NCBI RefSeq assembly: GCF_000238335.3
Contig: NZ_AHCB03000007.1
Coordinates: 248,001-312,000 of the forward strand
Origin: Pseudoalteromonas marina
GTDB lineage: Bacteria > Pseudomonadota > Gammaproteobacteria > Enterobacterales > Alteromonadaceae
Length of the DNA: 64,000 nt
Direction of reading: 5' to 3'
The first letter of the stretch is position 1, and the number at the start of each line of letters is the position of its first letter. The notes beneath the pieces were generated by a model, which was given only the letters and a program-made list of their open reading frames with translations, was not told where the DNA came from and did not search any database. Shown here one piece after another: positions 2,238 through 56,431 of the stretch. Made by a program: the position numbers and the translations under genes.

Positions 2238-2942
2238 ATGATAATGCAAAGCCGCTTTAGTGTATTGTTTCTATTAACGTGTTTTATGTTGAGCACGGCA
2301 TGTTTTAGCAATCAAAACACGCTCACATTTAACCGTCCTGATAACGTACCGCAAGCAAATTATGTTCTTGAGCTTCTTACACTCGCCTACAAGGACATAG
2401 GCTACGAAATACACCTTATCGATTTTAATCCCCAAAATGCTCTTCGCGCTGCTAATAATGGCACACTAGACGGACAGTTGGGTCGAGACAACAGTATAGA
2501 GGTAGATTTTCCTAATTTGCTGCCTGTTAACTACCCATTGTTCAAGTTTAAATTAATACTGTATAAAAACTGCCAGCAAAGCATATTAAACCGGCTCGAT
2601 AACGTCGCTATTTTAGCTGATTGCCCCATACAAGCACAGTACATAAAAAATACGCAATTTGATGGTAATGTAATTGAAGTAAAAAATATAAGTACGCAAC
2701 TAAACCTGCTTACTCAAGAAAAAGTAAAAGGTATATTGCTACTCGATTTTGCATCTGACAGTCTACCAATCCAGCATCCTGATGTTTGCTACCAAAAAGA
2801 GACACTACGTGTAACACCTGTTTATCATTACTTAAACAAACAAAATGCGCACCTAATTGAAGGCTTAGAAGCGGCACTCAATAAACTTCATAACAATGGC
2901 ACGGCTTATGCGCTTAAAGCTAAATACAATATGTATGATTAA
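2238..2942 (+). CDS. periplasmic substrate-binding protein, SBP_bac_3-like
   Basis: A secreted protein of about 234 residues. The N-terminus (RFSVLFLLTCFMLSTACFS) is a signal peptide, and the body has the pattern of family 3 solute-binding proteins: LTFNRPDNVPQANYVLELL, then LDGQLGRD near the hinge. No permease gene is adjacent, so it may be an orphan binding protein or a sensor-type protein rather than part of a transporter. The start could be ATG 2238 or ATG 2244; a TTG at 2232 is less likely. It converges with the small gene at 2939-3184 and overlaps its 3' end by four bases. Confidence 0.7.
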   Translation: MIMQSRFSVLFLLTCFMLSTACFSNQNTLTFNRPDNVPQANYVLELLTLAYKDIGYEIHLIDFNPQNALRAANNGTLDGQLGRDNSIEVDFPNLLPVNYPLFKFKLILYKNCQQSILNRLDNVAILADCPIQAQYIKNTQFDGNVIEVKNISTQLNLLTQEKVKGILLLDFASDSLPIQHPDVCYQKETLRVTPVYHYLNKQNAHLIEGLEAALNKLHNNGTAYALKAKYNMYD

Positions 2943-3184
2943 AAATCGAATCCGTGCTGCTTTGCCGTGTTAGTTGCACTTTCAGCTTGCTGTTTTTTGA
3001 GAAGATATCGCTTGTAGCGTTGCTGACATAGGCTCAGCACTTTTTTCTTTTGTGCATTGGTTAAAGAGTTCCATAAAAATCGCTCGTCACGACTACGGTA
3101 ACACCCTTTGCAATACCCTCTATTGTTAACTAAGCAAATACTTTTACAAGGACTTGGAATATCAAATATTTCAATTTGTTGCAT
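2939..3184 (-). CDS. DUF1289 domain protein
   Basis: A short cytoplasmic protein (81 residues from ATG 3184; a GTG at 3193 is an alternative start). It has the DUF1289 cysteine pattern: PSPCKSICLVNNRGYCKGCYRS, with four closely spaced cysteines, followed by a basic tail rich in Lys, Arg and Gln. Four Cys in this layout suggest a metal or Fe-S site, but no function is established for the family as far as I know. Its stop overlaps the convergent binding-protein gene. Confidence 0.8.
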   Translation of the reverse strand: MQQIEIFDIPSPCKSICLVNNRGYCKGCYRSRDERFLWNSLTNAQKKKVLSLCQQRYKRYLLKKQQAESATNTAKQHGFDF

Positions 3185-3241
3185 AGCATACACCGCTTAG
3201 TTAAGGTCATACTTGCAGTATAGCGTTATTTTTAAACAAAA

Positions 3242-3270
3242 AAAAAGTAGCAATACTATTGCTACTTTTT
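3242..3270 (-). terminator. rho-independent terminator of the acyltransferase gene
   Basis: A perfect 13-bp stem (AAAAAGTAGCAAT paired with ATTGCTACTTTTT) around a 3-base loop. On the minus strand it is followed by a run of T, and it lies 18 bases after the stop of the acyltransferase gene. Confidence 0.85.
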
Positions 3271-3287
3271 ACTTTATATACTTAATG

Positions 3288-4424
3288 CTAAAGCGATTCA
3301 GGGCTTTTAACATTTATTTGTGCTTTACGATGAAATGGTTTTGCATACATAGCCAATACAAGTGGCTTAAGCTCTTCAGGTACCTGCGCAATACGTTGTT
3401 CAAATGTTGCCGTATCTGGAGAGTTAATTACCGACTCTTTACAACCACCAGCAATATAATTGCCTGGGTGTAAGTAAAATGAATCTATTATTTGCTGGTC
3501 AATAGTGTTAGCAAGTTCCTCGGCGCTATCGCATTGTGACTCAATAGGCTGCCCAAAAGCTAAATGAACATGGCCCTTTGCCGTACTAAAGCCCTCAACA
3601 ATGCTTAAAATATCTTCACCCACCGACTTAACATATTCACCATGTTGTTGCTTATGATAAAGCTCTTTAGCTTTTGCTATAGCACATGGCTCATATTGAT
3701 AAGAAATAGACACAGGCACAACTTTTAACTCTTTAATGTATTCACCAAACTCTTTCTTTTGCTTACGGCCATTAAGTTGTAACATTTTTAGTAATGCAGG
3801 ATCGGTTTGATCAAAGCCATCTTTAGCGCGCCCTTCTTTTTGTGCAATCCAAATTGAGTGCCCGCCCATTAGTGAGTCATAAATATACGATGACAATTGC
3901 GTAAGGGCTTTTAGCATTTCTTTAGGAGCTTTAGCTGAGCGCTTAACAATAAAGCTTTTATTTAAACGCATCAGCTCTGTTATGTAGGGTATTTGCAGTA
4001 AATTATCGCCAATAGCTATTCGTACCGTTTTCATTTTATGTTGGTATAACCCCCAGTTAACAAGCGCAGGATCAAGCACTATATCGCGGTGGTTAGAAAC
4101 AAATAAATAAGCTTGATTAGGATCTAATTTATCTAAACCTGAAAAGGTGACTTTTGACGTGGTGCGTTTTATAAGTTTATCTAAATACGTAGCAACTTCA
4201 TTTTGAACATCTTCAACGCTCGTTACTTTTCCCCACTTTTTGCGTAGTTGGCTTCTTACCAATGGGCGGGCAATAAATGGCACTGCTGATAGAAAGCGCG
4301 GTAGATTATACTTAGCAATGACATCTATAAATGCATCATCACTCATTAAACGCGCTAATGATGCGTTAACCTCATTGTCGTTGTAAGGTCTTATGTCTGC
4401 GTACTTGTCTTCTAATTCACTCAT
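3288..4424 (-). CDS. PlsC-family acyltransferase (1-acylglycerol-3-phosphate type)
   Basis: This protein of about 378 residues contains the PlsC acyltransferase motifs in order: the catalytic HX4D box in VSNHRDIVLDPAL, a block around RLNKSFIVKRS, and EGRAKDG in the position of the EGTRS block. It should transfer a fatty acyl chain from acyl-ACP or acyl-CoA to a glycerophospholipid precursor at the inner membrane. The long N-terminal extension (ADIRPYNDNEV) is seen in relatives that are larger than the 240-residue PlsC. I chose ATG 4424; GTG 4454 adds ten residues and neither has a strong ribosome-binding site. It is an additional PlsC-like enzyme rather than the essential one. Confidence 0.8.
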   Translation of the reverse strand: MSELEDKYADIRPYNDNEVNASLARLMSDDAFIDVIAKYNLPRFLSAVPFIARPLVRSQLRKKWGKVTSVEDVQNEVATYLDKLIKRTTSKVTFSGLDKLDPNQAYLFVSNHRDIVLDPALVNWGLYQHKMKTVRIAIGDNLLQIPYITELMRLNKSFIVKRSAKAPKEMLKALTQLSSYIYDSLMGGHSIWIAQKEGRAKDGFDQTDPALLKMLQLNGRKQKKEFGEYIKELKVVPVSISYQYEPCAIAKAKELYHKQQHGEYVKSVGEDILSIVEGFSTAKGHVHLAFGQPIESQCDSAEELANTIDQQIIDSFYLHPGNYIAGGCKESVINSPDTATFEQRIAQVPEELKPLVLAMYAKPFHRKAQINVKSPESL

Positions 4425-52310: not shown

Positions 52311-53942
52311 TTAAGTGTGTTGCTCCATAGAACGATTAATAAAATACAAGGGGATAAATCCAACAATAACAATAGATAAAGCAGATATAGAAGCCAGCTC
52401 TAACTGCTCATCACTCACGTACTGAAAAACATGCGTTGCTAGACTTTCAAAGTTAAATGGTCTGAGTAATAACGCAGCAGGAAGTTCTTTCATGCATTCA
52501 ATAAAAACGAGTAAGGCAGCTGTCAGTAAGCCTCTTCTTAATAAAGGTAGGTGCACTAAACGCAATGTTTGGCCTTGGCTTTTACCCATAGACTGACTTG
52601 CCATATCAAGTGATGGACTAATACGCACAAAGCTCGACTCTATCGCTCCGTGAGCAATGGCATAAAACCGAACGACATAAGCAATCACAATAGTAAACAC
52701 ACTGCCTGTTAGTAACAAACCTATGTCTAAATTATAAGGCTCTAATACATTATTAATACTACTTTCTAACAGTGTTAGAGGTAATAAAACGGCAATTGCT
52801 AATACGGTGCCAGGCAGTGCATAGCCCGTACTCGCTAGTCGCCCAGGAACGAGAGGGTAAGACTGTGTTGCTATACGCTGATAAAAAACAACAAAAACAC
52901 CTAATGCAATTGTTATTACGCTCACAACGCCTGCCACTTTTAGGCTTTGCCACGCATAATTAAAAAACTCAGCACTCCATGCTTTTTCAAAGTAGGTAAT
53001 GGCGTAATTAAGTAATACTGCAATCGGAATCACAAAAGATACAAGTAAAACCGTGCCACAAAATGCCGTTGCTAACCAAGCCGACTTTCCCTTTAAAATA
53101 TAAAGTGCTTCACTATTTACGCCCGATTGGCGTTCAAATACAGCTTGATTACGACGACTAAAGCGCTCTGCCATAAGCGCTAAAAATAGAAGTAACAGCA
53201 TGACACCTGATATTTTTGCAGCAGCAGTCAAGGAGTAATAACCAAACCATGTATCGTATACCGCGGTTGTGAGCGTGCTAACAGCAAAATAACTTACTGT
53301 TGCAAAATCGGCCATTGTTTCCATACTAATAAGCGCAAGGGCGGCAACAATAGAACCACGAGATAATACAAGACTCACTTTAAAAAAACTTTTAGTTGGG
53401 GAAAGTCCCATTAATTGACTTGCCTGTACCAATTTAAAAGACTGCTCTCTCAAAGCCGTTTTAAAAATTAAAAATAAGTATGGGTAAAGCACCAAGGCAA
53501 TCATGACTATTGCGCCCGGCAGGGTACGTATATCAAAAAACCAATAGTCACTGGGAGATTGCCAGCCAAACCACTCCCTTAGAGTTATTTGCACGGGTCC
53601 TGCGTAATCAAGTAAATCAGTATACACGTAGGCAATAATGTAAGTAGGCATAGCAAGGGGCAGCATGAGCGCCCATTCAAAATGTTTTTTACCGGGAAAG
53701 TTACAATAAGCAGTTAGCCAACCAAGTGGCAACGCTATAACACTACTGAGTGCACACACACCTAATATAAGTAGTACAGTATTAGAAATGTAATCCCAAA
53801 GCACAGTGTCCCAAAGGTGAGTAAAAACCTCTGAGTTGCCTTGTAGCGATTCAAAAAGAAGGAAGAACAACGGGGCCGACAAAACTAAACCTGTCGACCA
53901 CGCGAATAGCTGCCATTTAGACAGCTTAAATTTATAAGTCAT
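52311..53942 (-). CDS. fbpB: ferric iron ABC transporter permease FbpB
   Basis: A 543-residue inner-membrane permease made of two fused halves, about 12 membrane segments. Each half carries an EAA-type loop contacting the ATPase (ASQLMGLSPTKSFFKVSL and ASQSMGKSQGQTLRLVHL). This duplicated layout is typical of FbpB/SfuB iron permeases. The start shares one base with the fbpA stop. Confidence 0.92.
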   Translation of the reverse strand: MTYKFKLSKWQLFAWSTGLVLSAPLFFLLFESLQGNSEVFTHLWDTVLWDYISNTVLLILGVCALSSVIALPLGWLTAYCNFPGKKHFEWALMLPLAMPTYIIAYVYTDLLDYAGPVQITLREWFGWQSPSDYWFFDIRTLPGAIVMIALVLYPYLFLIFKTALREQSFKLVQASQLMGLSPTKSFFKVSLVLSRGSIVAALALISMETMADFATVSYFAVSTLTTAVYDTWFGYYSLTAAAKISGVMLLLLFLALMAERFSRRNQAVFERQSGVNSEALYILKGKSAWLATAFCGTVLLVSFVIPIAVLLNYAITYFEKAWSAEFFNYAWQSLKVAGVVSVITIALGVFVVFYQRIATQSYPLVPGRLASTGYALPGTVLAIAVLLPLTLLESSINNVLEPYNLDIGLLLTGSVFTIVIAYVVRFYAIAHGAIESSFVRISPSLDMASQSMGKSQGQTLRLVHLPLLRRGLLTAALLVFIECMKELPAALLLRPFNFESLATHVFQYVSDEQLELASISALSIVIVGFIPLYFINRSMEQHT

Positions 53943-54946
53943 TAAAGATCGAACTTCACCTCATCAATTAACTTAAGCGCTAACGGACGATATTTACTGA
54001 TCTCATCAAGTGGCAAGCTATCTTCTTTAAAGCTGCCCCATGATGCAACCAAACTGGATAATTGCACACCAGGCTTAACTGGGTATTCCATATTAAGCGA
54101 TGCATACATGTTTTGCGCTTTATTGTCGGTCATATACTCTATGAGTTTCAAGGCATTTTCAGGGTTTTTAGCATATTTAGTGATAACAGCCCCCGAAACA
54201 TTAATATGTGAACCACGATTAATTTGATTAGGGAAATTAATGTGTACCGCCTCAGCCCATGCTTTTTGTTCTTCGTCTTGCAACATTTTACCCAAGTAGT
54301 AACTATTGCCTAACGCAAGATTACATAGCCCCTCTTTAACGGCTTTAACTTGAGCACGGTCATTGCCTTGTGGTTTACGTGCTAAATTAGCCTTGACGCC
54401 TTCAAGCCATGTTTTAGTTTGCGCTTCACCGTGATGAGCAATCATTGAAGCAACTAACCCTAGGTTATACGGATGTTTACCTGAACGAGTACAAATTTGC
54501 CCTTTATACTTTGGATCGGCTAGTTCTTCGTAAGTGAGCTTTGGTAATGCGCCCAAACGATCTTTCGACGAATATACATTTCGCACGCGTTTTGTTAGCG
54601 CAACCCATTGACCATCTCCATCTCGAAAAGCAGAAGGTACGTTAGCATTTACATTAGTGCTATTAATTGTTTGAGTTAAGTTTAAATCTTCCAATTGAAT
54701 GAGTGCACTAAAATTAGAAGTAAGAACTAAATCAGCTTTACTATGTTTACCTTCGCGTTTTACACGCTCGATTAAGCCTTTTTTAGCAAACACAACATTT
54801 GTTTTAATACCGGTTTGTTTTGTAAAATCGTCTAAAATAGGTTGTATTAAAAAAGGTTGGCGAAAAGAGTAAATATTAACAACATCATTTGCAAAGGCTG
54901 GCGCCGATACGATAAATCCTAAAGCGATAGCGAGTGTTTTCTTCAT
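53942..54946 (-). CDS. fbpA: periplasmic ferric iron-binding protein FbpA
   Basis: A 334-residue binding protein from ATG 54946, which has AGGTGG four bases upstream. The signal peptide is KKTLAIALGFIVSAPAFA, followed by VNIYSFRQPFLIQPILDDF, the FbpA/FutA-type N-terminus, and LALGNSYYLGKM with the two adjacent Tyr that hold ferric iron. The longer frame to 55006 would run through the Fur box and is rejected. First gene of fbpABC. Confidence 0.93.
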   Translation of the reverse strand: MKKTLAIALGFIVSAPAFANDVVNIYSFRQPFLIQPILDDFTKQTGIKTNVVFAKKGLIERVKREGKHSKADLVLTSNFSALIQLEDLNLTQTINSTNVNANVPSAFRDGDGQWVALTKRVRNVYSSKDRLGALPKLTYEELADPKYKGQICTRSGKHPYNLGLVASMIAHHGEAQTKTWLEGVKANLARKPQGNDRAQVKAVKEGLCNLALGNSYYLGKMLQDEEQKAWAEAVHINFPNQINRGSHINVSGAVITKYAKNPENALKLIEYMTDNKAQNMYASLNMEYPVKPGVQLSSLVASWGSFKEDSLPLDEISKYRPLALKLIDEVKFDL

Positions 54947-54959
54947 TATTCCACCTAAA

Positions 54960-54974
54960 TAGTAATTATTATCA
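54960..54974 (-). promoter_or_regulatory. Fur box upstream of fbpA
   Basis: On the minus strand TGATAATAATTACTA matches the 7-1-7 Fur consensus TGATAATnATTATCA at 12 of the 14 defined positions. It lies 14 bases before the fbpA start, so iron repression of the whole operon is expected. Confidence 0.8.
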
Positions 54975-55055
54975 ATAATTCTACCGTGAACAGTTAAAAA
55001 GTGCACACCCTAAATACCCATAAATACTAAAAAAGCGTCCAAAACAGAAATACCC

Positions 55056-55073
55056 TGTAAGAGATATCTCACG
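55056..55073 (+). promoter_or_regulatory. GacA/UvrY-type upstream activating site
   Basis: TGTAAG-AGATAT-CTCACG is an 18-bp imperfect palindrome that matches the GacA consensus TGTAAG-N6-CTTACA at 10 of 12 positions. Its centre is about 168 bp before the predicted csrB start, the usual distance for rsmZ/csrB genes. Confidence 0.75.
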
Positions 55074-55219
55074 GAAGTGGCAGCTTATAAGTAAAACACC
55101 GATTAAAAACCTACCAAAAAAAACATAAACCATTGATATTAAATAACTATATAATATTTAACAATAATAATACATAAACTATTTAGCGTTTTTGTCCTAC
55201 TTTAGTTGGACCATCCACC

Positions 55220-55225
55220 TATAAT
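55220..55225 (+). promoter_or_regulatory. candidate -10 of the Csr-type RNA gene
   Basis: A perfect TATAAT; TACTTT 16 bp upstream (55198-55203) is a weak -35, as expected of a promoter that needs an activator. Transcription would start near 55232. Confidence 0.6.
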
Positions 55226-55231
55226 TAACAC

Positions 55232-55707
55232 ATCAACTAAGCAATGACGCTTAACGAGTAAAAGGACAGGGATTAATTACTCGCAAACCAGTGACTGGTT
55301 ATTAAGGATAACACGGAGTTAGGACAGGCTCAGGATGAGCATCGCAACGGAGTGTTAATAAACGGACAGCATCAGGAAGATGCATAAAGGAGTGCAACAT
55401 TGGAGTGTTGCTTAACAGGAAGTTGAAGGAATATAAAGGACAGGTCTTAACAGGCAACACAATGGACTGATAACAACACGGAAGCACTAGGACGTGCAAA
55501 TGAAGGATTTGGTAATAGGTTTTACCGCAACAGGACGTTTAGGAATAAAGGAGATAAGCCCGGATTGGCTTATATTGCATAGAACTAAAAAGTAATATAG
55601 CAATAAACATGGAACAGTAAAAATTGGAGTTGATTAAGTTCAATTGCAGGATGCAGAAAATTAGAAGATTCCGCAAGCGCGCCTAGAGATAGAGCGCGCT
55701 TTTCTTT
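55232..55707 (+). ncRNA. csrB: CsrB/RsmZ-type regulatory RNA
   Basis: A region of about 475 nt without credible reading frame. Between 55261 and 55660 I count 25 GGA trinucleotides, mostly as AGGA or ACGGA. Many are in hairpin loops: GCTC-AGGAT-GAGC (55328-55340), GCATC-AGGAA-GATGC (55369-55383), GCAACA-TTGGAG-TGTTGC (55394-55411), GCAC-TAGGAC-GTGC (55484-55497), ATAAGCC-CGGATT-GGCTTAT (55554-55573). This is the binding pattern of RNAs that titrate CsrA/RsmA. A G+C-rich terminator ends it and a GacA-type box lies upstream. The ends are estimates. It lies between divergent fbpA and convergent tapT. It is probably under BarA-UvrY control. Confidence 0.88.
55677..55707 (+). terminator. terminator of the Csr-type RNA
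   Basis: GCGCGC (55677-55682) pairs with GCGCGC (55694-55699) across an 11-base loop, followed by TTTTCTTT. Confidence 0.88.
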
Positions 55708-55738: not shown

Positions 55739-56431
55739 TTAGAGAGACTCTGGTCTACCTTTATTTCGTTTTCCCATAAGATACGCATCTCTAAACTTTA
55801 TAAAGTGATCCTCAAGCTTTTTAGCTGCATCCATTTCACCCGCGAGTGCTAGCACTAAAATACCCACTTCAGCTGTGCCTAATTGATGCGCATGAGGCGC
55901 AACTCGTAAGCGATAATCTGATAACTTATCAGCTGTAATAGACAATACGGGCAAGTTATCTAAATATGGGCTTTTACGAATCATTTTTTTCGCTTCACGC
56001 CATGTACCATCTAAAAATATGAATAGCGGCTTTTTATTAGGCTCAATATTCACTTGCGTAATAGCTCGCCCCTCTTCTACATCCTCAGCAGGAAAAATAA
56101 CCATTGGCTGATATTGCTCATCATTAATAAGCGCTATTAGCGCATCATCTGGATTAGTTCTATCCCATTTAAAAGCATGGTTATCGGGTATAATTTCGGC
56201 AATTAAACGCCCCGTATTTGAAGGTTTAAAACTTTCGTTATGGTACATCAATAAACACACTGCAGCATCGCACTGCGCTTTCTCTACGCCTTCACAAATA
56301 CAGTAGTGCTTTGCAATTAAGCATTGCTCACAACGTGCTAACTTAGCGCCACGGGCATTAAATTCGCGACGAGATTCACTAATTTGCTGAGCGCGTAATA
56401 CCAGTACTGAATTATGGGAAGAGTGAGTCAC
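55739..56431 (-). CDS. tapT: DTW-domain tRNA-uridine aminocarboxypropyltransferase
   Basis: A 230-residue protein (E. coli TapT/YfiP has a similar length) that would transfer the aminocarboxypropyl group of SAM to U47 of tRNAs, forming acp3U. The DTW-family site is FLDGTWREAKKMIRKS. A cysteine cluster near the N-terminus (CEQCLIAKHYCICEG) probably binds zinc. The upstream region carries a heptanucleotide minisatellite that begins about 60 bases before its start. Confidence 0.88.
   Translation of the reverse strand: MTHSSHNSVLVLRAQQISESRREFNARGAKLARCEQCLIAKHYCICEGVEKAQCDAAVCLLMYHNESFKPSNTGRLIAEIIPDNHAFKWDRTNPDDALIALINDEQYQPMVIFPAEDVEEGRAITQVNIEPNKKPLFIFLDGTWREAKKMIRKSPYLDNLPVLSITADKLSDYRLRVAPHAHQLGTAEVGILVLALAGEMDAAKKLEDHFIKFRDAYLMGKRNKGRPESL

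Follow-up and report, generated by a model that had tools for sequence, protein, structure and literature searches.

The closest described systems are the sRNAs Pf1, Pf2 and Pf3 of Pseudoalteromonas fuliginea BSW20308, reported in two papers (PMC9927453, PMC11882849). Pf1 carries 25 GGA motifs according to the 2025 paper (PMC11882849) and 21 according to the 2023 paper (PMC9927453), Pf2 has 21 and Pf3 nine, and their promoters are described as driving GFP (PMC9927453, PMC11882849). Like CsrB, Pf1 altered glycogen in E. coli, and CsrA gel shifts were reported for Pf2 and Pf3 (PMC9927453, PMC11882849). In CsrA RIP-seq of wild-type P. fuliginea, Pf1 gave the top peak and showed the strongest enrichment among the three sRNAs; Pf1 matches were counted in 252 of 672 Pseudoalteromonas genomes, and E. 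coli CsrB is listed with 22 GGA (PMC11882849). The GacA box published for Pf1 reads CGTGAGACATCTCTTACA (PMC9927453).

The window, the whole 64-kb stretch of P. marina DNA analysed here, contains a predicted Csr sRNA gene of about 477 nt with 25 GGA on its plus strand (positions 55231–55707), with the 5′ end predicted from where the −10 element lies and from a conserved CATC(A/G) at the start. We are highly confident in reading this region as the gene of a Csr sRNA, most likely the Pf1 orthologue, that would be switched on by UvrY and would sequester CsrA. The earlier note on this DNA had proposed the same core reading, a CsrB-type CsrA sponge with its own GacA/UvrY box, and it draws good support from sequence and conservation, from covariation of moderate strength, from CsrA and UvrY genes in the genome and from the published Pf1 experiments. 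Its description of the region as unannotated-looking is right for Rfam but not for the literature, in which Pf1 of P. fuliginea is published. An RNA of this kind is already known, and the window copy is unremarkable among Pseudoalteromonas; its relatives form a notable series.

The count of 25 GGA in about 400 nt given in the earlier note was reproduced. The plus strand of 55234–55707 contains 25 GGA and 15 AGGA, against one GGA on the opposite strand, and within 55250–55650 the GGA counts of the two strands are 24 and 0. Dinucleotide-preserving shuffles of 55234–55660 averaged 11.3 GGA (sd 2.3) and none of 2000 reached 25. The richest 400-nt stretch of the 64-kb window contains 25 GGA, the next best elsewhere containing 7 on the plus strand and 7 on the minus strand. 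Folding of 55234–55707 as RNA gave a minimum free energy (MFE) of −114.2 kcal/mol (z = −4.76 against 100 shuffles), and the hairpin loops of the MFE structure hold seven GGA (55264, 55270, 55333, 55375, 55428, 55490 and 55562), so the earlier figure of at least five in loops stands. The ensemble GGA-in-loop value was 6.5, compared with 1.8 ± 0.8 in 150 shuffles with GGA fixed, none of which was as high and which contained more GGA than the real sequence (mean 29). Two of these hairpins, both on the plus strand, are GCUC-AGGAU-GAGC at 55328–55340 (loop probability 1.0) and GCAUC-AGGAA-GAUGC at 55369–55383 (loop probability 0.87). Many GGA, part of them within hairpin loops of the predicted fold, are a feature of the Csr/Rsm class that this sequence shares.

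The canonical GacA/UvrY box has CTTACA as its right arm. Motif search and conservation identified a GacA/UvrY-type box, the near-palindrome TGTAAGAGATATCTCACG, at 55056–55073 on the plus strand; it reads TGTAAG-AGATAT-CTCACG, its right arm lying two positions off the canonical form. In its own genome this box is the sole match without mismatch to the genus form TGTRAGANATNTCTYAC. That pattern was derived from the same Pseudoalteromonas loci to which it was then fitted, 51 of 64 loci (63 Pseudoalteromonas plus the window) having no mismatch and 13 having one; all 17 loci from other genera have five to six. The −10 element TATAAT was found by motif search at 55220–55225 (plus strand), and no −35 element was recognised by eye upstream of it. 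TATA[AC]T occurs 163–167 nt past the box start in 57 of the 64 loci, the window included, the exceptions being L023, L034, L035, L045, L047, L079 and L080. The predicted start at about 55231 is 175 nt beyond the beginning of the box and 158 nt beyond its end, in keeping with the spacing of about 168 bp claimed earlier. An intrinsic terminator, AAGCGCGC-loop-GCGCGCTT followed by TTTTCTTT, closes the gene at 55675–55707 (plus strand); its helix (helix 16) is paired in 99.5% of alignment cells and, being nearly invariant, adds little covariation. The TATAAT, the palindromic box and the terminator with its T tract were all located where the earlier note had placed them. Judged from sequence only, the locus thus has two further features of the Csr/Rsm class, namely a free-standing non-coding gene with a predicted promoter and intrinsic terminator, and a putative upstream GacA/UvrY-type site in a genome that carries UvrY.

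Directly before the terminator, alignment revealed a strongly conserved 3′ element at 55626–55673 (plus strand) that ends GCAGGAUGC...AGAAGAUUCCG. This element (end GCAGGATGC...AGAAGATTCCG in the window) is better conserved than the remaining RNA. Of 63 Pseudoalteromonas loci, 59 contain AGATTCCG and three (L076–L078) its one-base variant AAATTCCG, and the remaining locus, L064, ends at its contig end before the site; conservation of the element's 5′ portion, GTTGATTAAGTTCAATT, is confined to the window's own subgroup. A search of 295 genomes of the order with the 3′-element pattern matched 15, against 6 of 295 for the reversed control, and those 15 are both sampled Pseudoalteromonas genomes and 13 others. 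At 12 of the 14 places in non-Pseudoalteromonas genomes the matched strand does not exceed 10 GGA per 300 nt, compared with 21–22 in the two Pseudoalteromonas genomes; the other two, both in one genome, have 16 (L156) and 11 (L161) per 300 nt.

At the Rfam gathering cut-off nothing was called in the window, and the 63 Pseudoalteromonas loci and a second Csr-type sRNA of this genome (L135, described below) likewise gave no call. A covariance search with the CsrB model had been proposed in the earlier note, and it fell short: in a relaxed search of an 811-nt stretch CsrB (RF00018) was the best family, at 18.8 bits (E 0.0053) against a gathering score of 71, so the RNA is CsrB-like, yet no RF00018 match. 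In a genome-wide CsrB scan at E ≤ 10 the window locus was absent, the sole hit lying elsewhere in the genome (9.4 bits, E 4.4). The RNA therefore falls outside RF00018 CsrB/RsmB membership, which takes at least 71 bits, while resembling E. coli CsrB in its many GGA, AGGA in hairpin loops, terminator and UvrY-type box.

To the left of the sRNA and divergent from it lies a gene for an ABC-transporter solute-binding protein (53942–54946, minus strand; Pfam SBP_bac_6/8), which served as the synteny anchor. The best 80 of its 463 relatives provided 80 loci, 63 from Pseudoalteromonas and 17 from other genera. Upstream of the solute-binding protein gene, every one of the 63 Pseudoalteromonas loci has a GGA-dense stretch (15–30 per 400 nt) and none of the 17 others does; 16 of the latter have 5–8 GGA per 400 nt on that strand, and L093 has 5 GGA in the 303 nt available upstream. 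Since the loci were chosen by the neighbouring gene, this is a measure of constancy of place and not of how common the element is across genomes. A DNA search matched 18 of the 25 genomes of this genus (own included) and missed seven; none of the 16 from other genera matched. Sequence similarity at the same locus throughout the genus places the RNA in the Pf1 family. By the neighbouring protein, the nearest named locus among the best 80 of 463 relatives is that of Pseudoalteromonas sp. H71 (98%), whose sRNA is 94% identical.

Across 27 aligned loci, the window included, 19 of the 25 GGA are retained in at least 23, the other six being retained in only 10 to 21, and identity to the window RNA drops to 67%. 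Covariation was assessed in alignment A1, the 22 sequences left after removal of five loci: L038, extracted without its full 3′ end, and L026, L040, L041 and L042, each 95–99% identical to a retained row. The consensus structure, which was derived from the very alignment tested and is biased in its own favour to that extent, has 12 pairs with changes on both sides, against 7.7 ± 1.4 in shuffles, of which one in 500 attained 12. Cells changed on both sides number 46, compared with 16.7 ± 2.7 in shuffles, none of 500 attaining 46. Further pair types in this 22-sequence consensus are no more numerous than in shuffles, 379 of 500 of which had as many or more. The hairpin at 55369–55383 (helix 5) shows both-side changes in three of five pairs with 100% of cells paired, and that at 55328–55340 (helix 4) has all cells paired and no both-side changes. 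Covariation thus lends moderate support to several hairpins, foremost the GGA-loop hairpin at 55369–55383.

Comparison through the published 18-nt box makes the window RNA most likely an orthologue of Pf1 of P. fuliginea BSW20308, because the genus is the same, the GGA count of 25 is alike, and the published box, taken as its reverse complement, is identical to the one that strain EB27 (L027) carries at this locus. The EB27 locus is 81.1% identical to the window RNA. P. fuliginea KMM 216 (L023) has an sRNA gene at the same place that is 79.5% identical, with a box two positions off the published one. The window RNA and Pf1 also have a GacA-type box, a promoter and a terminator in common; they differ in species, and the window box is one base off the reverse complement of the published box. 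Pf2 and Pf3 belong to the same functional class, but their loci differ from the window locus.

The genome contains one CsrA match (89.6 bits) and one UvrY/GacA match above the NCBI cut-off (393.9 bits against 280). Box search and GGA counting located a second Csr-type sRNA (L135) on the minus strand of G000:C5 at about 51.28–51.71 kb (region to about 51926), with 21 GGA, a terminator-like hairpin followed by a T run, and a one-mismatch box about 210 nt ahead of the first GGA. It is likely the counterpart of Pf2, its 21 GGA equalling the published Pf2 count, a likeness by count and not by alignment. With a second such RNA in the genome, the window RNA is one of at least two predicted sponges, and the designation 'main CsrA antagonist' in the earlier note stays conjectural; by analogy with the RIP-seq ranking of Pf1 in P. 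fuliginea, it is plausible that the window RNA is the chief sponge. A genome scan with TGTRAGANATNTCTYAC gave 11 places (reversed control: 9 forward, 6 reverse), of which the GGA-rich flanks are those of the window (L134, L136), the Pf2-like place (L135, L141) and L140. The last exceeds the GGA line and was rejected as a Csr sRNA, its GGA being scattered among four tRNA genes. The plain box TGTAAGN6CTTACA with up to two mismatches proved too loose, with 230 places per strand genome-wide against 98 for the reversed control; among 24 such places inspected (L102–L125), L120 alone exceeded 9 GGA per 300 nt, and it was discarded as an sRNA candidate as it lies inside a 302-codon open frame. Among the box-selected places of this genome, none was recognised as a counterpart of Pf3.

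Several relatives of the window RNA, which itself has no internal tandem repeat, are enlarged. In P. aurantia 208 (L069, about 2730–3720, minus strand) the syntenic RNA contains a tandem repeat with a period of 66–67 nt in 7.7 copies, as determined with TRF, and in Pseudoalteromonas sp. MSK9-3 (L068) the same repeat is present in 6.8 copies; counted by an anchor motif, the units number 9 and 7, respectively. The predicted transcripts are 968 nt with 52 GGA (L069) and 898 nt with 51 GGA (L068). A single unit of about 66 nt folded alone is predicted to form two hairpins, the first with its GGA entirely in the loop. In the P. aurantia group this two-GGA-hairpin unit, present about 7–9 times, gives one predicted RNA of about 900–970 nt, with box, 3′ element and terminator kept in place. 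A strict scan found no internal terminators in the L068 and L069 RNAs, a result of little weight since the scan also missed real terminators. The 66–67-nt repeat also occurs in P. aurantia S3788 (L064), in 4.3 copies up to its contig end, and P. neustonica (L038, 347–625) has an internal duplication of 126 nt in 2.2 copies, with 31 GGA in the run. No paper on such expansion of a Csr sRNA was found in a literature search by titles and abstract starts, and in the accessible text of PMC11882849 'tandem repeat' appears solely in one retrotransposon reference. It is a tentative suggestion, credible though short of probable, that the Pf1 family is a sponge that evolves capacity by copying CsrA-binding modules and that its 3′ element (GCAGGA...AGATTCCG) may serve some purpose besides CsrA binding, for instance in processing or turnover.

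Other explanations of the region were weighed. It is scarcely credible that the GGA richness reflects compositional chance or a purine-rich repeat: a local purine bias is the one point in its favour, and plain shuffles (n = 2000) went no higher than 21 GGA, against 25 in the real sequence, but the shuffle controls speak against chance, a like element occupies the same place in all 63 congeneric loci among the best 80 of 463 relatives, and this conservation, in a family whose window copy is free of tandem repeats, already contradicts it. Nor is the region at all likely to be the leader of a protein gene or a small-protein gene. A 65-codon open frame does run along the minus strand at 55302–55499, but among the 22 aligned relatives the longest open run varies in length and frame, and once in strand; moreover, the terminator closes the transcript and the flanking genes are both on the minus strand.

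An unlikely but less remote alternative is a Csr sRNA driven mainly by a regulator other than UvrY/GacA, the palindrome being the site of another factor. The deviating right arm of the box would fit this, as would the genus form TGTRAGANATNTCTYAC with its conserved AGANATNTCT core, which the plain TGTAAGN6CTTACA does not demand. Against it, the genome carries a UvrY orthologue, a similar box with one mismatch precedes the Pf2-like sRNA, and the placement of the box agrees with csrB promoters, in which it is likewise located upstream of the start. The reading as a UvrY-switched Csr sRNA is preferred because GGA enrichment and loop placement exceed shuffles, because box, −10 element and terminator are conserved genus-wide, and because most GGA are kept while identity falls and both-side changes exceed shuffles; it is weakened by the CsrB score below gathering, the lack of excess in pair types and the six less conserved GGA.

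On this UvrY-switched reading, transcription, UvrY activation and CsrA sequestration are predicted for this organism. Phosphorylated UvrY/GacA would most likely bind the box at 55056–55073 and, once bound, would most likely turn on the promoter at 55220. To judge from the Pf1 experiments in P. fuliginea, the RNA of about 477 nt would present some 25 GGA sites, several in stem loops, to CsrA dimers, and their capture would release mRNAs from CsrA. Binding and antagonism of CsrA, in print for Pf1 only, are expected of the window RNA by analogy.

On its other side the sRNA converges with a gene for a DTW-domain protein (55739–56431, minus strand; Pfam PF03942, E 2e-55). The divergent ABC-transporter set comprises the solute-binding protein, a permease and an ATPase. 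For the transporter, every NCBIfam substrate model scored below its cut-off, with phosphonate transporters matching best; for the solute-binding protein all matches were below cut-off, phosphonate and thiamine binders being the best, and for the ATPase a ferric model was just second best, also below cut-off. A weak Fur-like site at 54955–54973, before the transporter gene, matches the Fur consensus at 13 of 19 positions, a score reached at 19 places in the window. These results lend no support to an iron link, and the coupling of carbon storage to iron suggested earlier is left with adjacency to an ABC transporter as its sole support.

The standard Rfam cut-off misses the Csr sRNA in 63 Pseudoalteromonas loci and the window despite its constant place and box. 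Annotation by locus, box and GGA density would capture the RNA and ease testing of the Csr circuit in these marine bacteria, and the repeat-expanded relatives form a natural series in which to study the effect of site number on CsrA titration.
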